Below, in pieces: positions 21,031 to 34,339 of a stretch of DNA of 44,437 bases. Position 1 is the stretch's first letter. Every line of letters starts with the position of its first letter. Source of the stretch: Fibrobacterota bacterium (GTDB lineage Bacteria; Fibrobacterota; Fibrobacteria; UBA11236); the NCBI GenBank assembly GCA_028287465.1, contig JAQBPO010000044.1, positions 1-44,437 of the forward strand, written 5' to 3'. Below the pieces are notes generated by a model. The model saw only the letters and a program-made list of their open reading frames with translations, made no database searches and was not told the origin of the DNA. A program made the position numbers and the translations under genes.

Positions 21031-21435
21031 TCAGCGGGAAGGGTAATAGTTCGCGCCGTCCGGGAGGAAGGCGTTGGGGATATGCTCCAGGCCCGGCCGG
21101 GAGCCGTCCTCGGGCATTTCAACGCCCACCACGTCGAACCGCATGTCCCGATGCTCCTGGCCTTGTTGGCAGCAATACCGTTGGGCCAGGCGTTGCAGGC
21201 GCCTTATCTTCCTGCCGTCGATGCGCTCCAGGGGGCGGCCCTTGGTGCTGGTCCGGTTCGCCTTGACCTCCACGAATACCAGGACCTTGTCCGGATCCTC
21301 CATGATGAGGTCGATTTCCCCCCGTCCCCGCCGGTAGTTGCGATGGAGGAGGGTGAAGCCTTTGGACGCGAGGAGGGTGAGGGCCAGGTCTTCGCCCCTA
21401 CGGCCCGCGCCGCAATGGTTTTCCGGCTTATTCAT
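21031..21435 (-). CDS. yraN: YraN/UPF0102 family endonuclease-like protein
   Basis: This 134-residue protein has a restriction-endonuclease-like core. It opens with GRRGEDLALTLLASKGF, then RNYRRGRGEIDLIMEDPDKVLVFVEVK, which holds the GEID...EVK acidic and Lys residues of a PD-(D/E)XK-type site. This is followed by the KIRRLQRLAQRY helix and the MRFDVVGV strand. The family is widespread and its role is poorly defined, with links to DNA repair or uptake proposed for some members. The start overlaps the end of the upstream kinase gene by 8 bases, indicating translational coupling. Coupling to a Ser/Thr kinase is unusual for yraN, which more often sits next to rnhB or rsmI. Confidence 0.92.
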   Translation of the reverse strand: MNKPENHCGAGRRGEDLALTLLASKGFTLLHRNYRRGRGEIDLIMEDPDKVLVFVEVKANRTSTKGRPLERIDGRKIRRLQRLAQRYCCQQGQEHRDMRFDVVGVEMPEDGSRPGLEHIPNAFLPDGANYYPSR

Positions 21436-22945
21436 AGGGAAGGCCCAGGAATCGGACCTCCCGTACGGCGATCGGTTTGACGGATGCGGGAGACGCCGCG
21501 CCCGCGGGAGCGGTTCCGAGGGAGAAACGGAGGGTGCCTTTTTCCAGCATCACCCCGCCCAAGGCCAGGTATTGTGGCCCGTCCGATTCCGACAGACCGA
21601 GCCGGATGGGCTTGCGGCCTTCCGCCTCCAAGGTGACGAATCTGGGATAGGCGTAAGCCGGCGCGGAACCGTCCGCATTCTGGAATCCCGCTTCGATGAC
21701 GAGGCCGGTTACCAGGATCTTTTTCGCGAAGGCGAATCCGATTTCCGCGTCATCGCGGGTCGTTCCCAGGGGCGCGGCCCAGGCGGTGGATCGTTTCCCG
21801 TCGAAGAGGTTCTCCACGCTCGAAGCGCCGCTCGGGCCGGTAGCCGCCGATGGCCCGGAATAGGTCGCGGGAACGGTCCAACCAAGGGTCTTCGCGGAGC
21901 CGGTGCCTGGCCGCAAAAGGAGGAAAGCCAGGGCGGCGAGGATGATCGCGAAAAGTCCCAGGATGCCCCAGAGATATCCCCGCGATACCGCCATGGGTTC
22001 ACCCGTGTATCGGCGATCCTTGTTGCGCCTATCCGTTATCCGCAGATCGGACGGGATTTGGGTCTTGCTCGTGGCCAGCTCAGGGGACACGTCCAGATGG
22101 GCCGAATCGAGATCCTTGAGCAACTCGTCCGCGGTAAGGTAGCGATCCGCCTTGTTCTTCTTCAGGCATTTGGCAACGATCAGTTCCAGCCGGGGCGGAA
22201 CGTCATGGGCCTTTTTGCCGAGCAGGGGAGGGGTCTCATGGACCTGTTTGTAGGCGACCGCGAGGGGGGTATCCGCCAGGAAGGGCGGGCGGCCGGTGAC
22301 CATCTCGTAGATGATGATGCCCAGGCCGTAGATATCGCTCTGGCCGTCCACCAGCCCGCCTTCGCATTGTTCCGGCGCCATGTACTCCGGCGTGCCCATG
22401 GCCATGCCGGTGGTGGTGATGCTCGGCGCGTCGATGACCTTGGCGATGCCGAAATCGGAGATGTAGACCTTGTCGCCCGGTTCGACCATGATATTGCCGG
22501 ACTTGATGTCGCGATGCACGATCTCGTTCTGGTGGGCGTACTTCAGGCCCCGGCAGATCTGCTTGGTGATGCCGATGATCCGCGCGTAGTCCAGGTACTT
22601 CTTCTCGTTCTGGATCAGTTTGCTCAGGGTGGTGCCCTGGACATATTGCATGGCGATGAACTTCTGCCCGTTCTCCTCGCCGTAGTCGTAGATGGTGACG
22701 ATGTTCTGATGCTGCAGGCGGGAAATCGCATAGGCCTCGGTGAAGAACCGTTCCGAGAACTCGGTGCTGCGGGCCAGCAGGCTCGGCAGGATTTTCAGGG
22801 CGACCGTCCGGTCGAGTCCGGTCTGGACGGCCTTGTAGACGTCGCCCATGCCGCCTTTTCCGAGATGCTCGACGATGGTGTAAGCCCCGAACTGGTGTTC
22901 GGTGAAGGCTTCGGGTTGCGTCGGTTTGATCGCGGCCTTGTCCAT
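21428..22945 (-). CDS. Membrane Ser/Thr protein kinase with C-terminal discoidin-like domain
   Basis: This Hanks-type kinase has 505 residues from the ATG at 22945. The glycine loop is LGKGGMGDVYKA. Lys51 is in VALKIL, the catalytic Asp146 in HRDIKSGNIMV, Asp164 in the DFG, and the APE motif in YMAPEQ after a Thr-rich activation loop. All catalytic residues are intact. A single membrane helix (about residues 323-347, WGILGLFAIILAALAFLLL) follows an arginine-rich juxtamembrane stretch. The outer domain has an NLFDGKRSTAWAAP motif typical of discoidin (F5/8 type C) sandwiches, so it may bind sugar or envelope ligands. An in-frame ATG at 23083 would add 46 residues, but a TATAAT box lies inside that region and an AAGGA precedes 22945. 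It heads the kinase-yraN-yciO run and is divergent from another kinase. Confidence 0.88.
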   Translation of the reverse strand: MDKAAIKPTQPEAFTEHQFGAYTIVEHLGKGGMGDVYKAVQTGLDRTVALKILPSLLARSTEFSERFFTEAYAISRLQHQNIVTIYDYGEENGQKFIAMQYVQGTTLSKLIQNEKKYLDYARIIGITKQICRGLKYAHQNEIVHRDIKSGNIMVEPGDKVYISDFGIAKVIDAPSITTTGMAMGTPEYMAPEQCEGGLVDGQSDIYGLGIIIYEMVTGRPPFLADTPLAVAYKQVHETPPLLGKKAHDVPPRLELIVAKCLKKNKADRYLTADELLKDLDSAHLDVSPELATSKTQIPSDLRITDRRNKDRRYTGEPMAVSRGYLWGILGLFAIILAALAFLLLRPGTGSAKTLGWTVPATYSGPSAATGPSGASSVENLFDGKRSTAWAAPLGTTRDDAEIGFAFAKKILVTGLVIEAGFQNADGSAPAYAYPRFVTLEAEGRKPIRLGLSESDGPQYLALGGVMLEKGTLRFSLGTAPAGAASPASVKPIAVREVRFLGLPYE

Positions 22946-23059
22946 GGATTGTCCTTTCCGAATCGGAAACCGCCCGGCTTCGGACCCGCCCTGCCTCGGC
23001 TCCAGGGAGACGGAAGGCTTGCGGGGAAGCGGAATGGTTTCCAAGCCGAATGTACCGAA

Positions 23060-23065
23060 ATTATA
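23060..23065 (-). promoter_or_regulatory. TATAAT box, candidate -10 for the kinase-yraN-yciO run
   Basis: On the minus strand the bases read TATAAT, about 115 bases upstream of the preferred kinase start. No good -35 is seen 17 bases further up. Its position inside the longer kinase frame favours the shorter start at 22945. Confidence 0.4.
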
Positions 23066-23151
23066 GGAAAAATCCGTGTCCATGATCTCTAAAAACCTCG
23101 GATTCCCCGGGTTATCCTCTCCCGCTTTCCGTGTTGCTACCTTCCCGGCGC

Positions 23152-24786
23152 ATGAACAGCCGTTACGGTAGGTACGAAGTCCTGTACAAGCTGGGCCAGG
23201 GAGCCATGGCGCAGGTATTCCTGGCGCGGGACCCCGTCCTGTCCCGCTTCGTCGCCGTAAAGGTCCTGCACGCGGATCTGGCCTCCCGCAAGGACGTGCT
23301 GCAACGCTTTTTCAACGAAGCGCGTACCGTGGCCGTGGTCCGCAACCCGCATGTGGTGGAGGTCTTCGACTTCGGCCAAGAAGGGAAGGATCTCTACCTG
23401 GTCATGGAATTCGTGGACGGCCTCAGCCTTCACGGGGTCCTCAAGCAATTGCGTCCCGCATCCCCCGGACATGTCGATACGCCCCAGGATCTTACCGCTT
23501 CCGCGCGGGACCTGTCGCCGTACTTCGAGCCGTTGGATTCGACCATCACGGCCGCCCTGATGTGCCAGGCGGCGGAAGGCTTGACCTTGGCCGCGCAGCA
23601 TGGCGTCGTCCATCGGGACATCAAGCCCGAGAACCTGATGATCAATCAGCAAGGTTACCTGAAGATTTCCGATTTCGGCATCGCGCACGTCCAGGATGAA
23701 AGCATCACCAAGACCGGTGCGGTCCTGGGTTCCCCCCTATTCATGTCCCCGGAACAGGCGCGCGGCATCAAACCCATCACTTCCCAGGCCGACATGTTCT
23801 CCCTGGGCGCGGTCTTCTATTCCTGCCTCGTTGGGCATCCGCCCTTCAAGGGCCGGAATCTCACGGATCTGTTCCGCAAGATCGCTTCCGAAGCGCATAT
23901 CCCCCTTTGGAGGCTTCGTCCCGATCTGGATCCCGCCCTGGGAACCCTCGTGGAAACCCTGCTCCGGAAGGATCCCGCCGAACGCGGGGCGGGACCACGA
24001 TGGCTGCACCGCCAACTCAAGGGTTACCTGATGGCCTTGGGAATCATGGATCCAGCGGAATTGATCGCGGGATACCTGCAGGAGCTTTCCGCGCGGGGGA
24101 TACAGACCACTTGGCGCATGGAGGGTCCGGGATCGCCTCGGCCGGCCACGCTTCCGGTGGGGACCCTGCCCATGAATTCAGCCGCCACCGAGCGTTATAC
24201 GCGCGAAAGCGACCGTCGCATGCCGGCGGCGGCTTTGGGAGCGGCCTTGGGCATCCTGGGGATGGCCGCGGCGGGCGTGGCATGGGGCGTTCTTTCCCAC
24301 ATGGGCAAACCGGGGGCCGCCGCGGAGGCCCGGGCCTCAAGTAACGTAAGTGGTACCCTGGCCTCTTTCGCGGTTCCCGCCGGCGGAGTCCCTGGGACGG
24401 CCAGGCGGGAAGGCGAAGGGCGGGAAACCGCGTCGGGCGGGAAGGATTCCGCGGCCTCGCAGCCCCTCATTCCGGATCCGGAACCGATAGCCGTATCGGC
24501 AAAGGATCCTGCTGAAAAGCCGCAAGGGACCGAGGAAAACGCCATTCTGGTCCTGAAAAGCTCGCCGCCCTTCGCCGAAACCTTCGTGGACGGGAATTTC
24601 ATGGGCGTAACCCCGGTGAGGCTGGCGTCCCTTCCCGCGGGCCGGCACCGGGTAATCCTGAAGGTCAAGCATGCTCCGGCCTTCGATACCGTACTCGTCC
24701 TGAAATCCGGGACGCAGGCCTACAAGTTCCGCATGGATGACGGCGCGCCATCGCGCTTGGCGGCGACTCCCGAAGACCCGCTCTAA
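23152..24786 (+). CDS. Membrane Ser/Thr protein kinase with C-terminal PEGA domain
   Basis: This is a 544-residue Hanks-type kinase. Its motifs are LGQGAMAQVFLARD, Lys37 in VAVKVL, HRDIKPENLMI with Asp156, Asp174 in the DFG, and MSPEQA. An insert of about 25 residues between the N and C lobes (PASPGHVDTPQDLTASARD) is longer than usual. A membrane helix lies at about residues 358-381 (AALGAALGILGMAAAGVAWGVL). The outer part is a Ser/Gly/Pro-rich linker and then a PEGA domain (SSPPFAETFVDGNFMGVTPV, then GRHRVILK). PEGA domains are common on surface and lipoprotein-like sensors. A GTG at 23131 could add 7 residues. It is divergent from the discoidin-type kinase and overlaps the converging aminotransferase gene by 4 bases. 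Confidence 0.9.
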   Translation: MNSRYGRYEVLYKLGQGAMAQVFLARDPVLSRFVAVKVLHADLASRKDVLQRFFNEARTVAVVRNPHVVEVFDFGQEGKDLYLVMEFVDGLSLHGVLKQLRPASPGHVDTPQDLTASARDLSPYFEPLDSTITAALMCQAAEGLTLAAQHGVVHRDIKPENLMINQQGYLKISDFGIAHVQDESITKTGAVLGSPLFMSPEQARGIKPITSQADMFSLGAVFYSCLVGHPPFKGRNLTDLFRKIASEAHIPLWRLRPDLDPALGTLVETLLRKDPAERGAGPRWLHRQLKGYLMALGIMDPAELIAGYLQELSARGIQTTWRMEGPGSPRPATLPVGTLPMNSAATERYTRESDRRMPAAALGAALGILGMAAAGVAWGVLSHMGKPGAAAEARASSNVSGTLASFAVPAGGVPGTARREGEGRETASGGKDSAASQPLIPDPEPIAVSAKDPAEKPQGTEENAILVLKSSPPFAETFVDGNFMGVTPVRLASLPAGRHRVILKVKHAPAFDTVLVLKSGTQAYKFRMDDGAPSRLAATPEDPL

Positions 24787-27781: not shown

Positions 27782-30700
27782 TCAACGCTTGGAAATGACC
27801 AGCCGGAGGCTGGAGCGGGCCAGGATGGGATCCCATTCGGCCTGGATCTTGGCGTATTCCTCCGGGGTGGCCACGAAGGGGTCGATGCGCCAGTTCTGCT
27901 TGATGACGATGGACTCCGGTGTGCCTTGGTTGATGGACAGGAGCCAATGCAGGTAATGTTCCGACAGCTCCCGGTCCAGATTCAGGGACTTCCATCCGTA
28001 GCCTTCCGGGATTTCGTAGACCCATTGGGAATTGATCTGGATCTCATGGGGGAAGTACACCGGGGCCTTCCGGGAAGTGGCGCGCGGGAACCTCAGGAAA
28101 CTCAATTCCAGCTTGGGGAAATGCTCGAACTCCTGGAGCGCGGTGCGGAACGGGAACTTGGCCCGGTACCGGAAGACCATCACCAGGGGAAGATCCGGAT
28201 CGTTCTCGTTGAGCACGCGGAAGCGTTCATCGGCGAAAGCGGGATAGCTTTGGGCCAGCCAGCTCAGGAGGTTCTCGAATTTCGTGTTCGGGTTCCAGGC
28301 CCGCATATGGGCGCGGAATTCGGACGCGACCTTGCCGGAAAGGACCAGGCTGTCGGAACCGATGGCGGTCTGATTGGGATCCACCTTCAGATTGTGGAAG
28401 ACCTGGACGCGATGCTCCCCTGCGGAATCCAATTCCGGGATGGTCGCCATGCGGGAGTTCTCATCGTCGATGATAAGGACGTTCTTGCCTTCCAGGGCGA
28501 GGGGCGCGCGGCGGAAAGCATAGGATTTTTCCGTCGGGTCCAGGAAGTACTGGGGCAAGCCCTTCTGGGCCGGCACATGCACGATCATGTGGTTGAACTG
28601 GTGGAGGCTGGGCTGATCGATATCGCCCGCGTGATTGAGGCTGACGAGGCAGAGGTGGGCCTCCAGGTTGCGCGCCTTCAGCATCTGCATCAAGAGCAGG
28701 GCGTGGCCTTTGCAATCGGAGTATCCGTTCGTCAGAACGGCTTCGCAGCGTTCCGGAACAAGGGCCTGGAGGCTGAATTCGTAATTGTTGTACCGGACCG
28801 AATCCCGGACGAACCGATAGAGGGCCATCACGGGATTCACCCCGCGGTTCTTGTCCATGGTCTCGGCCGCACGTTCCTGTACGGGCACGGGGATGGAATC
28901 GAGGCGGATCCCGGACTTTTCGAGGAAGCGCTGGTAATTGCGACCCACCTCGCGCCAGGTCGTGAACGGGGTTATGGAGAAGCCCGTTCCGAACTCATCG
29001 TTGTAGGGGCGGAAATTCTCCTCGAAGGCCGGAGTGGGTTCATCCATGCGGATCACAAGGCGATCGGGAAGGCTGTCCACCTTGGTTTCACCGAAGGCGC
29101 TGAGGAGGAGGTGCTTCGGCGGGTGAAGGATCTCATAAGTGCTATTCAGGACCGGAAAGGGATAGGCATGATCGTAGCGGAGATAGGGGAATTCTGCGAC
29201 CGGAAGCTGCGACTCTTCGGTCGTGATCGCTTCGAGGAATTGGACGCCCGGTTTGGTCTTGAGGGGAAGGTGGACCAGGAGGTTTTCCGGATGAAGGGTC
29301 GTATTGTGGCTTTTCGTCACGTAGAAATCGGCCGCCGTCTCGGATTCGACGACCTTGCCGTTCCCGTCGTACAGGCGGAACGCGTTCACGTAGAACCGCG
29401 AATATCCGGGATTCATTTCATAGGTGAGCTCGGACATGCGGAAGAGCTTTTTCGCGTCCTTGATATGGTAGAACTGGTGGCGCGTTTTCTTCCAGCGACC
29501 ATCGGTAGCCCGGGTCTTGGGCGCCCAGGAATAAACGATGTCCTGGGTCAGCATGGTCAGGGGGGATTGGGCGGACAGCTTCAGGTTATCCGGCTTCTGC
29601 ATCAGGGCCTTGGCCGCCGAAAGGCTTGCCCTGGTCTTTAGCGGAGAGATGGGCGTGCGGAGGATGAGATTGCTGCGATTGCCCATCAATGCGGCCACTT
29701 GGGTGGCCAATTGCTGCGCTTCCCGATTGGCGGGATCCAGGTCCACGGCCTGTTTGGCGGACTGTCCCGCCAGGCGGTAGAGCTTGAGGTTGAATTCGCA
29801 TTCTCCCTTCAGCAGGTAATTGTTGGAGCTGGGCGGGAATCCATTGCCCAAGGTGCGGACGAAATCCAGAGCGCCTTCATAGTCCTTCAGGCCGGCCAGG
29901 GCCCGAAGGTAGTACTCCGCGGATTTCTCGTTCGGAACCGTATCGGCATGGGTTTGGACCAGCACTTGCCGGGCATTCTCGTACTCCTCCAGGCCAAGGT
30001 AGGTGGACGCCAGATATACCGAAAGCCGGAAGGTCGGCTTCTCGCTGTAGCGTCGGAGCAGGACATTCTTCGAATGGACCCGCTCGCCCAAGCCCCAAAG
30101 CGCGTCGGAAAGGTTGATGAGCCACTCCGTGTTTTCCGGTTCCAATTCCAAGGCTTTGAGGGCCCAGTCCTTGGCCTCCTGGTATTTGCCCAACTCCTCG
30201 AACAGGGCCCCCATGATGCCGGCCAATTCGCCGGAAGTCGTGAGAAGCTTCGGGAAGCGGGACAGGAAATCAAGACCGGCGAGGGTTTCCTTGCGGACTT
30301 GGAAGATGGCGGCGCAATTGACCAGGTAGGCCGCGTTCGCGGCATCGAGATCCAGCGCTTTCTGGAAATGCTTCATGGCCGCGGTCCAATTGGAGTCCTC
30401 GACGGCTTTGAGGCCCAAGGTGTTCTCGATAGCGGCCCGAAAGCTGCGCAAGCATGAATCCGGGAGCGATCCAGGCTTTGAGGGCTGGTATTCCATGCGG
30501 ATATCGTCGATTCCCCCGAGGCGATCCCGGCTAAGGGGCATTTTCGATTCCACGCTGACGAAAAGCAGGGAGGAGTCCGAACGCATCATCAGACCCCAGT
30601 GCTTCAGGGTATCCTCGGGGGATTTGAAAAGGAAGGCCCGCCCCGCCGGAGGTTCCGCGCCTCCTGCCGACGAATCCGGATCGGCCTTGAATAGATAGGC

Positions 30701-31096
30701 GAAGGCGGCCGTAAGCTGCTTTTCCCCGGAGTGCCCTTTAGGAAGGGTGGTTTCGAAAAGGGAAATCCTTACCTTGCGGTCATCACCCCGGACCAAGGTG
30801 CGCACCGGATACCCTTTATCGGTACGTTCCCCGGGTACTTCGATCCAGATCGGCTTGACCGCGGTGAAGTTCCATCCCGTACCGCTCTGGTATTCCTGGA
30901 AGAAGCGGTCCTGTTCGCGCTTGGCGGCGACGGATTCGGGAACATGGAAAACGGTGGAATCGGCGAGGGAACGGGCGGTGCGACCGGAGCGCCCGGGACC
31001 TGCGCAATCCCATATCCCTAGGGAGGATATCAACCATAGCCCGGCCATTGCCAAGGTCAATGGGATCCGTCGGGGGATGGATGTCTGGGAGGGCAA
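27782..31096 (-). CDS. Large TPR and transglutaminase-like (DUF3857-type) exported protein
   Basis: This protein has 1104 residues from a TTG at 31096. Alternative starts inside the signal segment exist, but the RR-containing N-terminus and the promoter placement favour the TTG. The hydrophobic segment ends in GIWDC, a possible lipid site. Residues of about 220-470 contain helical TPR-like pairs (AMKHFQKALDLDAANAAYLVNCAA; WALKALELEPENTEWLINLSDALWGLG). A beta-rich region (about 530-730) resembles DUF3857. A transglutaminase core follows with Cys795 in DCKGHALLL, His836 in FNHMIVHV and a DPTE motif about 15 residues on. Such proteins are envelope-associated in Bacteroidota relatives and mostly uncharacterised. 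Protein cross-linking or proteolysis is possible but unproven. The TPR block placed before DUF3857 is less usual. Confidence 0.8.
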   Translation of the reverse strand: MPSQTSIPRRIPLTLAMAGLWLISSLGIWDCAGPGRSGRTARSLADSTVFHVPESVAAKREQDRFFQEYQSGTGWNFTAVKPIWIEVPGERTDKGYPVRTLVRGDDRKVRISLFETTLPKGHSGEKQLTAAFAYLFKADPDSSAGGAEPPAGRAFLFKSPEDTLKHWGLMMRSDSSLLFVSVESKMPLSRDRLGGIDDIRMEYQPSKPGSLPDSCLRSFRAAIENTLGLKAVEDSNWTAAMKHFQKALDLDAANAAYLVNCAAIFQVRKETLAGLDFLSRFPKLLTTSGELAGIMGALFEELGKYQEAKDWALKALELEPENTEWLINLSDALWGLGERVHSKNVLLRRYSEKPTFRLSVYLASTYLGLEEYENARQVLVQTHADTVPNEKSAEYYLRALAGLKDYEGALDFVRTLGNGFPPSSNNYLLKGECEFNLKLYRLAGQSAKQAVDLDPANREAQQLATQVAALMGNRSNLILRTPISPLKTRASLSAAKALMQKPDNLKLSAQSPLTMLTQDIVYSWAPKTRATDGRWKKTRHQFYHIKDAKKLFRMSELTYEMNPGYSRFYVNAFRLYDGNGKVVESETAADFYVTKSHNTTLHPENLLVHLPLKTKPGVQFLEAITTEESQLPVAEFPYLRYDHAYPFPVLNSTYEILHPPKHLLLSAFGETKVDSLPDRLVIRMDEPTPAFEENFRPYNDEFGTGFSITPFTTWREVGRNYQRFLEKSGIRLDSIPVPVQERAAETMDKNRGVNPVMALYRFVRDSVRYNNYEFSLQALVPERCEAVLTNGYSDCKGHALLLMQMLKARNLEAHLCLVSLNHAGDIDQPSLHQFNHMIVHVPAQKGLPQYFLDPTEKSYAFRRAPLALEGKNVLIIDDENSRMATIPELDSAGEHRVQVFHNLKVDPNQTAIGSDSLVLSGKVASEFRAHMRAWNPNTKFENLLSWLAQSYPAFADERFRVLNENDPDLPLVMVFRYRAKFPFRTALQEFEHFPKLELSFLRFPRATSRKAPVYFPHEIQINSQWVYEIPEGYGWKSLNLDRELSEHYLHWLLSINQGTPESIVIKQNWRIDPFVATPEEYAKIQAEWDPILARSSLRLVISKR

Positions 31097-31206: not shown

Positions 31207-31352
31207 CAACCGTGGCAGGTGGAATAGGCGACTTCAGCGTTTCGGCAGGCAAAGATCTTTCCGGAAACCGGGGCGGAGAGTCCCAAGCGGGAACCCAGAA
31301 CCGTTCCGCCGGCGCGCGCATAGCCGGACAGGGCAATTCCCATTACATCGTG

Positions 31353-32618
31353 ATGATGAAAAAGGGCTGGGAACAGGAGGCGCCGTTGCGCTTCCATAAC
31401 GGGTTCCTGGATGACCTCCGCAATCGTTTCCGCCTTACTTCCAAGGTCCCATTGCCGGAGATGCCCGACTTCTTCCCGACCGGGGCGGAAGGGGAGATGA
31501 TCTTCCAGGGCCGGAACGTCCTCCATCTGGACAATGCTTTGCGCGAGCAAACCCTTTTCGCCCATCTGGAAAACCTGCGGGATCTCGTACAAAGGGTCGC
31601 TGACCGGAAGATCACCTTCCCGGACTTCATCTCCGGCCTCAACGGCATCTCCATACCGCCTTCCTGGCGCAATGAGATCGTCAACGGGCTTTTCGAGCAC
31701 GCCGCTCCCGGAACCACCTTGATCCCCGAGGCCAAGGCCCCAGGCCTATCGAGCGACATCGACCGGTTGATGGACATGATCAACCAGGACAATACCGGCG
31801 GATCCAAACTGAGTCCGCATCTCGGTCGCTTCCTGGAAGAGGTGGGGCGCGACAGCACCGGCTTCAAGCTGAGGGACGGGGCCGCCAAGCAGCTTCATAA
31901 GGATCTTGTCCAAACCCTTGAGGCCTTGCGTGGAAGCCTATTGCGCCACGGGGCGTTGGCCGACGCCCTCGGATTCATGTCCACCTTGCAACGCCTGGCC
32001 CGCGGAGCCAAGGGCCGCGAACGCCAGACGGTCCACCTCTGGACCGAAGTTCCAACGGATCCCCGCGCTGTTCTCCTGGGCGAAACCGCCGATGGAGGAG
32101 CGGATTTCGCGGTCGCCGTCGTGGTAACCGATCCCCTTGATCGCGAGCCCGCCTATCTCAGAGAGGTCGCCGGGCTTTGCGCAACGCTCGCCTGCCCCCT
32201 GCTCCTGCAATTGCCGGGCGAGGAATTCCCCAAAGCCGTCGATGGCGAGGCCGCCTCGTCGGCCATAACCGCCCTTTCAGCCCTCGCCGAATCGGTCCGC
32301 AAGCCGGACGCCTACTTTTTCGCCGGAGGGGTGGCTTCCCGCGTGGAAGGGGAGAATTGCGTTTTCCGCCCCGCGGCCCTGGCCTTTCTGGAGGGACTGG
32401 TCGCTTCCCGGGAAAACGTGGACTTTTATACCCACCGGTCAATGGTCCTCGGAGATCAGGACCTGGTCACGGAGAAGGGGCAGGCCCGGGCCACGGACCG
32501 GCTTTTGGATCAAACCCAGGTGAATGCTTTGAGCGGCATGAGAATCAATCGCGTCAATGGCGCACGCAACCGCAGTGAAGCCTCCTTTCCGCTCCTGACT
32601 CCCTGGGGCGATGCGTGA
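31353..32618 (+). CDS. Protein of unknown function preceding the FHA-transglycosylase gene
   Basis: I do not recognise this 421-residue protein. The start is uncertain: GTG 31350, ATG 31353 and ATG 31356 are consecutive in frame and no good ribosome site precedes them. The open frame extends further upstream, but that part overlaps the divergent promoters. The protein has no signal peptide or membrane helix, so it is probably cytoplasmic. The N-terminal half is helical and charged. The C-terminal half has hydrophobic strands (DFAVAVVVTDP, CATLACPLLLQLPG, PDAYFFAGGVASRV) suggesting an alpha/beta domain, and ends in a basic tail (MRINRVNGARNRS). It is 26 bases before the FHA-lytic transglycosylase gene and very likely co-transcribed. 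The final region distantly recalls contractile-sheath proteins, but not enough to call it. Confidence 0.6.
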   Translation: MMKKGWEQEAPLRFHNGFLDDLRNRFRLTSKVPLPEMPDFFPTGAEGEMIFQGRNVLHLDNALREQTLFAHLENLRDLVQRVADRKITFPDFISGLNGISIPPSWRNEIVNGLFEHAAPGTTLIPEAKAPGLSSDIDRLMDMINQDNTGGSKLSPHLGRFLEEVGRDSTGFKLRDGAAKQLHKDLVQTLEALRGSLLRHGALADALGFMSTLQRLARGAKGRERQTVHLWTEVPTDPRAVLLGETADGGADFAVAVVVTDPLDREPAYLREVAGLCATLACPLLLQLPGEEFPKAVDGEAASSAITALSALAESVRKPDAYFFAGGVASRVEGENCVFRPAALAFLEGLVASRENVDFYTHRSMVLGDQDLVTEKGQARATDRLLDQTQVNALSGMRINRVNGARNRSEASFPLLTPWGDA

Positions 32619-32644: not shown

Positions 32645-34339
32645 ATGGCTGACTATTTCCTCCAAATCATCTCCGGCGTCCAGGTCGGCCGGAAAATCCG
32701 CATCGCCAACGGCATTACGCTCGGCAGGAATCCGGAAAACACGGTTTGCTTTTCCGGACCCGACGGCACCCTTGTTTCCGGCAAGCACGCCGTCATCGAG
32801 AAGCGCGGCGAAATCCTCATGCTCCGGGACCTGGGCAGCACAAACGGCACCTTCATCAACGGGACCCAGATAGCCGAGCATGCCTTGAACACGGACGAGG
32901 TGATCAGCCTCGGCGTCAGCGGTCCCAAGATGCGGCTCGTGGAAAAAACCTCCTCCGCCACCGACTCCACCACCATGAGGCCCGTCGGTAATCCGGCCTT
33001 GGGCGTTTCCAACCAGGAACCGCGCCAGGTCCGAACCGAATTCGAGGGAAAGCGCCCGGCCGCCAAGGCGGCGACGCCGCCCGGTTTCTTCAAATCCAAA
33101 GGAAAGGTCCCGCGGGACGGAGTCCCGGCGGCCGGTCCAGGAGCCAAAGGAGCCGCAGGACGGGGTCCGGCCGGACAGAGTCCGGGCAATCCCGATCACG
33201 GCGATTTCGGCGGCGGCATGGATGACGAGAACGCCGGCAACTACACCATGGGCCTGGCCCAGCGTTTCAAGGACGACGAGGCCGGCCACGATGAGCTCCA
33301 GGACTTGATCAAGGACAAAGGCCGCGCGGAGCGCATGGTCAAGAGCGGGGTGCTGAGCAAGCGCGACGCCATGATGATCCATTCCGCCGCTTCCATGCAC
33401 TCCCATCAGAAAAAGCGCGCCTTGATCATCCTCGGTTCCGTCTCCGTGGTCGCCTTCACCATCGTCAGCGTGCTCTTGTACCAGAACATGGGCTATCGCG
33501 GCAAGCTTAAGCAGCAGGAAAGCCTTCTTTCCAACGTCCGCACCCTGGAATCGCAGATCACCGCCCCGGCTTCCACCAGCCAGGACGAGCATGAAAAGGC
33601 CGAGCTGGTCGCCAAGCTCCGCGCCGCGGAACGACAATTGATGAGCGTCCGCTCCAACCTCAAATCCTCCGATATCATCAATACCTACAAGAATCCCCTG
33701 GGGAGGGAGATCCATACCATCCTGGAAGGGTTCGGCAAACGCGATTATATCGTGCCGGAAATCTTCATCAAGCAAGTGGAAAAGCACATCTACACCTTCA
33801 CCAAGACCTCCACGCGCAACATCATGGAGCGCTCCTTCGCCAATAGCCATCTGCACAAGCGCACCATCGAGGACGAGTTGTCCCGGCAGGGGATGCCCTT
33901 GGCGTTCTATTACCTGGCAATGCATGAGAGCCTGCTCGACTCCACCATCGTCAGCAAGGCCGGCGCGCGCGGGCTCTGGCAGTTCATGCCCCAGACGGCG
34001 CGGGATTACGGCCTGAAGGTCCCGGAGAATTGGGAAAGCCTTTCCCCCGAATACGATCAGCGCACCAACCCGCAGATGGCGACCCAGGCGGGCGTGAAAT
34101 ACGTGAAGACCCTTTATGCGGAATTCGGCGACGTCGCCTTGGCCATGGCTGCCTACAATGCGGGCGAAGGCCGCATCCGCAAGGCCCTGCGCAGCATCGA
34201 TGATCCGATCAACAACCGGGACTTCTGGTACATTTATCGCCTGGGAACCTTGGCGGAGGAGACCAACGAATACGTGCCGAAAATCATCGCGACCATGATA
34301 GTCGACAAGAACCGGGCGAGGTACGGGTTTTCCGAGTAG
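32645..34339 (+). CDS. FHA domain - membrane helix - lytic transglycosylase fusion
   Basis: This protein has 564 residues with three parts. The N-terminal FHA domain (about residues 5-100) has the phosphothreonine-binding set Arg28, Ser45, His48 and Asn67 (LGRNPEN, SGKHAVI, LGSTNGTF). A Gly/Pro/Lys-rich linker and a helical stretch follow. A single membrane helix lies at about residues 259-281 (ALIILGSVSVVAFTIVSVLLY), then a coiled-coil-like region with a heptad pattern (residues about 290-340). The C-terminus is an SLT/MltD-like lytic transglycosylase with the catalytic Glu428 in AMHESLLDS and the motifs GARGLWQFMPQTARDYGL and AYNAGEGRIRKAL. With the FHA part inside the cell and the enzyme in the periplasm, it could cut peptidoglycan under control of a phosphorylated partner. 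That topology and role are inference. Confidence 0.88.
   Translation: MADYFLQIISGVQVGRKIRIANGITLGRNPENTVCFSGPDGTLVSGKHAVIEKRGEILMLRDLGSTNGTFINGTQIAEHALNTDEVISLGVSGPKMRLVEKTSSATDSTTMRPVGNPALGVSNQEPRQVRTEFEGKRPAAKAATPPGFFKSKGKVPRDGVPAAGPGAKGAAGRGPAGQSPGNPDHGDFGGGMDDENAGNYTMGLAQRFKDDEAGHDELQDLIKDKGRAERMVKSGVLSKRDAMMIHSAASMHSHQKKRALIILGSVSVVAFTIVSVLLYQNMGYRGKLKQQESLLSNVRTLESQITAPASTSQDEHEKAELVAKLRAAERQLMSVRSNLKSSDIINTYKNPLGREIHTILEGFGKRDYIVPEIFIKQVEKHIYTFTKTSTRNIMERSFANSHLHKRTIEDELSRQGMPLAFYYLAMHESLLDSTIVSKAGARGLWQFMPQTARDYGLKVPENWESLSPEYDQRTNPQMATQAGVKYVKTLYAEFGDVALAMAAYNAGEGRIRKALRSIDDPINNRDFWYIYRLGTLAEETNEYVPKIIATMIVDKNRARYGFSE

Follow-up and report, generated by a model that had tools for sequence, protein, structure and literature searches.

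One protein encoded in the window, the whole 44,437-nucleotide stretch of Fibrobacterota DNA that was analysed, joins an FHA domain through a membrane helix to an SLT lytic transglycosylase domain. On balance, we favour the reading that this FHA-SLT protein is a lytic transglycosylase anchored in the membrane and recruited by phosphothreonine, and that in Fibrobacterota it most likely opens peptidoglycan for the type VI secretion system (T6SS). Recruitment of the wall enzyme by phosphothreonine is likely, and so is service to the T6SS, the latter for Fibrobacterota only. How do bacteria ensure that the wall is cut only where a trans-envelope machine is being built? If our proposal is true, a reader of kinase marks on the inside and a peptidoglycan cutter on the outside, held in one chain, would answer this open question directly and in a testable way.

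Architecture and conservation of the FHA-SLT protein

The FHA-SLT gene (32645-34339, plus strand) starts with ATG and encodes 564 residues free of internal stops, and about 30 full-length relatives are found. Pfam recognizes an FHA domain (PF00498) at residues 24-90 (E 6e-15, 55.9 bits against a gathering cut-off of 20.7) and an SLT domain (PF01464) at residues 413-517 (E 1.6e-25, far above the gathering score). The FHA domain occupies residues 1-100 (32645-32944) and is followed by a disordered linker, predicted to be cytoplasmic, at about residues 101-199 (32945-33241). A single membrane helix at residues 260-278 (33422-33478; hydropathy 2.67) leads into a long helical stalk (residues 279-345; 33479-33679) that links the membrane to the MltD-type SLT domain (residues 346-564; 33680-34336), all on the plus strand. 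The fusion of FHA and SLT domains via a membrane helix, described in the initial annotation, is thus confirmed by both Pfam domains, the lone helix and the intact frame. One such hydropathy peak is present in all 31 family members.

An AlphaFold model built from 31 relatives places the FHA domain at a pLDDT of ~93 and the SLT domain mostly at 90 or above, with residues 103-195 disordered (pLDDT below 50). A helix at residues 239-306 of the model would span the membrane and then extend outside. In Foldseek searches, the best PDB match of the enzyme part is Pseudomonas aeruginosa MltD (7e-9; 8rhf/8rhe fold), and the front part matches FhaA-type FHA domains (4e-7) as well as the GarA and OdhI types. 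Profile searches agree on both parts, and the MltD model NF008050 matches the SLT part with an E-value of 4.9e-26. The topology is probably N-in/C-out, given that no signal precedes the FHA domain and that the lone helix lies in the middle of the protein; because charges are alike on both helix flanks, the positive-inside rule alone is not decisive for this orientation.

The residues expected to act at both ends are retained. In the FHA pocket, G27, R28, S45 and H48 are invariant in 31 of 31 aligned proteins, and N67 is Asn in 30 of 31, with Gln in L043. The loss of FHA binding residues in homologues, which had been named as a finding that would speak against a signalling role, is therefore not what these 31 proteins display, and the claim of an intact pocket stands. 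On the SLT side, the claimed catalytic Glu is likewise intact: the putative catalytic Glu428 (codon 33926-33928, plus strand, HES motif) is invariant in all 31 rows, as are S429, W445, Q446, Y504, N505 and G507, and the motifs GA.G.WQ and AYN.G (AYNAG) are intact. To judge from the aligned sequences, both ends of the protein are kept by selection. Within the genus, identity reaches 82-95% in the FHA part and 81-90% in the SLT part against 50-75% in the linker, and linker identity drops to 31% or less outside the genus.

Within the diverging linker, about 30 residues past the FHA domain, a [RK]T.[DE][DE]-type motif occurs in 15 of 31 proteins, compared with about one expected from shuffled linkers. 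The window version reads R130-T131-E-F-E. FHA domains such as Rad53 FHA1 are known to recognize a Thr followed by an acidic residue at +3. Thr131 (codon 33035-33037, plus strand), with Glu at +3, is therefore a candidate phospho-acceptor site. The motif is absent from the paralogue, the short-linker forms and the Myxococcota relatives, and its absence in Myxococcota rules out the Thr131 motif as a general family feature.

Distribution of the family

The protein belongs to an old family with members in both Fibrobacterota and Myxococcota. A paralogue with 42% identity lies on another contig (C100) of the same genome. The five remaining genomes of the genus all have the layout, as does one genome of the same order. 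We surveyed 168 Fibrobacterota genomes and 195 Myxococcota genomes. The FHA part alone, used as a query against the Fibrobacterota set, retrieves 30 loci, 29 of which encode FHA-SLT proteins; the sole locus not confirmed as such (L123) ends at a contig edge. A profile of 31 proteins detects the layout in about 39 of the 168 genomes (E below 1e-100); in family f3, which is rich in genera, it detects nothing but a separate MltD-like enzyme. A locus in a 'Deltaproteobacteria' metagenome-assembled genome was labelled Myxococcota by the tree tool, which led to the search of that phylum. There, 18 of 195 genomes pass and about 13 have a recognizable FHA pocket; one relative matches Pfam FHA at 1.9e-20 and SLT at 1.3e-21. 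A chance or artefactual fusion is ruled out by the intact frame and by the occurrence of the layout in dozens of genomes from two phyla.

In a maximum-likelihood tree of SLT domains, all FHA-SLT enzymes form one group (support 97/88) apart from MltD-type enzymes, and a single change of label accounts for FHA-SLT in the tree and in 98% of bootstrap trees. These sequence comparisons indicate that the FHA-SLT enzyme domain arose once. The initial annotation missed the old two-phylum family and its paralogue in this genome, the tracking of the T6SS in Fibrobacterota and the MltD-type nature of the SLT part.

As a separate observation, the FHA-SLT gene is flanked in several Myxococcota genomes by genes for a DUF1257 protein, an AAA ATPase and a family of ~470 residues that lacks a clear Pfam domain (L214:8193-8696, L214:10506-11909).

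Kinase and type VI secretion genes

Two membrane Ser/Thr kinases of 551 residues each are encoded in the window, one at 21428-23083 (minus strand; Pkinase 5.9e-55) and the other, which carries a PEGA domain, at 23131-24786 (plus strand; Pkinase 1.2e-44). The two kinases noted in the initial annotation are thus real: each has HRD and DFG motifs and a single membrane helix. Their distance from the FHA-SLT gene is about 8 to 11 kb, and neither adjoins it. The initial annotation also proposed that Ser/Thr kinase signalling is linked to wall cleavage. This link is supported by the pocket conservation and by the kinase genes found upstream in relatives, whereas the proximity of the two window kinases, taken alone, is weak evidence.

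In nine Fibrobacterota genomes from four families (G077, G080, G082, G083, G091, G092, G096, G098 and G100), the gene immediately before FHA-SLT, in the same orientation, codes for a CHASE2 receptor Ser/Thr kinase. These kinases form one family of ~790 residues and end just ahead of the FHA-SLT start; the CHASE2 and Ser/Thr kinase domains were checked for G091 and G098. At ~25 kinases per 4,500 genes, nine kinase-adjacent cases among 20 loci would have a probability of 3.9e-13 if the loci were independent, which they are not. Such adjacency is not chance. In addition, a PEGA-type kinase gene is divergently adjacent to FHA-SLT in G010, and a kinase gene adjoins FHA-SLT at the Myxococcota locus L223. 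In many Fibrobacterota genomes, another FHA protein of a different kind (open frame of about 680-760 residues) is encoded at a distance of 2-3 kb from a Ser/Thr kinase (G065:C1:101124/103008, G066:C84, G073:C19, G092:C1, G096:C86 and Fibrobacter-type genomes).

T6SS genes are a recurrent neighbour of FHA-SLT in Fibrobacterota. In 7 genomes, no more than about 12 kb separates FHA-SLT from the T6SS sheath gene tssC. Among G064, G065, G077, G078, G079, G084 and G098, the neighbours include tssA/B/C/hcp/tssE/F/G, clpV or vgrG; six of these genomes have tssA, tssB, tssC and hcp, mostly with tssE, tssF and tssG, and G077 has clpV. The second FHA-SLT copy of G080 lies between tssM and two kinase genes, with tssK, tssL and tssA-C also nearby. 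Across the 168 Fibrobacterota genomes, 36 have both TssC and FHA-SLT, 3 have FHA-SLT only, 14 have TssC only and 115 have neither. Two of the three FHA-SLT-only genomes are 68% and 79% complete, and the 14 TssC-only genomes belong to families f3 and f4. The Fisher value for this co-occurrence is 1e-21, which overstates the case because related genomes are not independent. Since relatedness inflates any p-value, pairs within a genus weigh most: G062 and G085 (98-100% complete) lack both genes, their congeners G063 and G084 have both, and the genome without both genes is the larger one in each pair. G166 and G167, which are large (5.4-5.6 Mb) and kinase-bearing, also lack TssC and FHA-SLT. TagH (TIGR03354) reaches its cut-off in none of the 168 genomes. 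Among cultured species of the phylum, Chitinispirillum alkaliphilum is reported to possess a T6SS (PMC4814513).

In the window's own genome, the T6SS genes for TssA-C, E-G, K (VasE), L (DotU) and M (IcmF) lie on another contig (C73), and FHA-SLT is not beside recognized T6SS genes anywhere in the window's genus. Its immediate surroundings in the window are glycolytic genes and one gene without a family. The latter, directly upstream (31212-32618, plus strand, GTG start), encodes 468 residues with no Pfam hit, adjoins FHA-SLT in all six genomes of the genus and is conserved in the genus only. Its product reaches 27-33% in hhalign against a TssB/TssC-like protein, a weak hint that it may be a far relative of that sheath-like protein; its AlphaFold model has a pLDDT of 56 and no PDB fold match, and the fold search is uninformative. 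The TssB/TssC-like gene itself lies upstream of FHA-SLT in G091, G092, G080, G082, G083 and G075. Its product combines a TssB-like front with a TssC-like middle (hhalign against TssC 97%, E 3.8e-11) and, with ~550 residues, appears to be a diverged sheath-like protein. Genes for such proteins are found close upstream of FecR, CHASE2-kinase and FHA-SLT genes (L149:3583-5265, L151, L153, L155, L159 and L160). Elsewhere in the window, positions 27782-31096 encode a 1104-residue protein, conserved in the genus, with TPR repeats and a weak transglutaminase-like core.

Among the ~13 Myxococcota genomes with the layout, only two (G216 and G222) have TssC. We therefore restrict the proposed T6SS service to Fibrobacterota. 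The T6SS is no necessary partner of the architecture, and its role as a universal partner is ruled out.

Proposed function and comparison with known systems

We propose that a membrane receptor Ser/Thr kinase modifies a threonine, either in the inner-membrane complex of the T6SS or in the linker of FHA-SLT itself, by phosphorylation. The cytoplasmic FHA domain would dock on this phosphothreonine, and the periplasmic MltD-type enzyme would be concentrated, and possibly activated, at a defined site of the envelope. The wall would then be opened at the docking place, which in Fibrobacterota is most likely the T6SS machine. One chain would thereby do the work of both the T6SS FHA protein (Fha1/TagH), the reader of the PpkA kinase signal, and the T6SS wall-opening enzyme (MltE or TagX). 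Phosphothreonine binding, transglycosylase activity and the direction of control are all predicted here, and so is a T6SS role of the protein in the genome of the window, where the T6SS genes and FHA-SLT lie on different contigs. A stronger version, which we hold only tentatively, is that this one transmembrane protein is the Fibrobacterota substitute for both TagH and MltE/TagX, with a CHASE2 receptor kinase licensing the cell to cut its own wall precisely at the site of a future T6SS.

Could FHA-SLT instead serve general kinase-controlled wall remodelling in elongation, division or envelope stress, its T6SS link reflecting gains and losses that both share with large genomes rich in kinases? 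Most Myxococcota relatives lack a T6SS, the window gene sits beside glycolytic genes and a gene without a family, and kinase-rich genomes tend to carry FHA-SLT. However, kinase-bearing genomes that lack a T6SS also lack FHA-SLT even if they are large, as in G166, G167, G062 and G085, and the direct T6SS neighbourhood recurs in seven genera. We thus consider general remodelling unlikely, and the T6SS neighbourhood together with the presence and absence of the two genes in Fibrobacterota indicates that wall cutting probably serves the secretion machine rather than general turnover.

The FHA domain might also be purely structural, in the manner of the cytoplasmic FHA-like domain of YscD/SctD: it would tether the enzyme to a ring in the inner membrane and read no phosphothreonine. 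The FHA region also scores just below the cut-off of Pfam Yop-YscD_cpl (9.9e-8) and above it in relatives, and L043 has Gln at the pocket Asn. Such a role is quite improbable, given that the pocket is conserved across great divergence, that the best structural matches are the phosphothreonine-binding domains of FhaA, GarA and OdhI, and that a kinase gene adjoins in relatives. A different use of the same pocket is an intramolecular switch, in which the kinase phosphorylates Thr131 and the linker folds onto the FHA domain, as in GarA and OdhI, or links neighbouring molecules and alters enzyme clustering. The enrichment of the basic-Thr-x-acidic-acidic motif in an otherwise diverging, disordered linker favours this switch, but the forms that lack the motif and the non-independence of the relatives that bear it make it rather unlikely as the full account. 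It may act together with the phosphothreonine-recruited T6SS function that we prefer.

MltD is a lipoprotein with LysM domains. The P. aeruginosa enzyme (8RHE/8RHF; NF008050) is the closest to the catalytic domain in sequence and fold; FHA-SLT lacks LysM and has a membrane helix and a predicted cytoplasmic FHA domain instead. Membership of the full-length MltD family is rejected at 91 bits against a cut-off of 508. In type III secretion, the FHA-like EscD/SctD and the lytic transglycosylase EtgA form a pair that brings both functions into one secretion system, but as two separate proteins. Both are mentioned for the LEE locus (PMC1084347). FHA-SLT itself is not an SctD/YscD ring protein (Yop-YscD_cpl 32.6 against 33.2 bits), and its periplasmic part is SLT.

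Fha1/TagH (TIGR03354) resembles FHA-SLT in its FHA domain, T6SS neighbourhood and kinase partner; unlike FHA-SLT, it has no enzyme domain, and FHA-SLT scores 30.5 bits against the TagH cut-off of 120.25. PpkA phosphorylates TssL, whose phosphothreonine is bound by Fha (PMC3953482), and PpkA and Fha position the T6SS machine (PMC12607579). This pathway shares with our proposal a membrane kinase, a phosphothreonine reader and the T6SS inner-membrane complex. However, its reader is a separate cytoplasmic scaffold, whereas that of FHA-SLT is fused to a wall enzyme, and the kinase beside FHA-SLT relatives differs in having a CHASE2 sensor. MltE of Escherichia coli and TagX of Acinetobacter open peptidoglycan for T6SS assembly (PMC5841429, PMC5061870), the role proposed here for FHA-SLT, but MltE is a lipoprotein, TagX is an L,D-endopeptidase, and both lack an FHA domain and kinase input. 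No description of an FHA-transglycosylase fusion was found in the open-access full-text literature; the layout may nevertheless be listed in a database or mentioned in unpublished work. Thus, the separate parts have published parallels, and what is new is the union of a phosphothreonine reader and a wall cutter in one chain.
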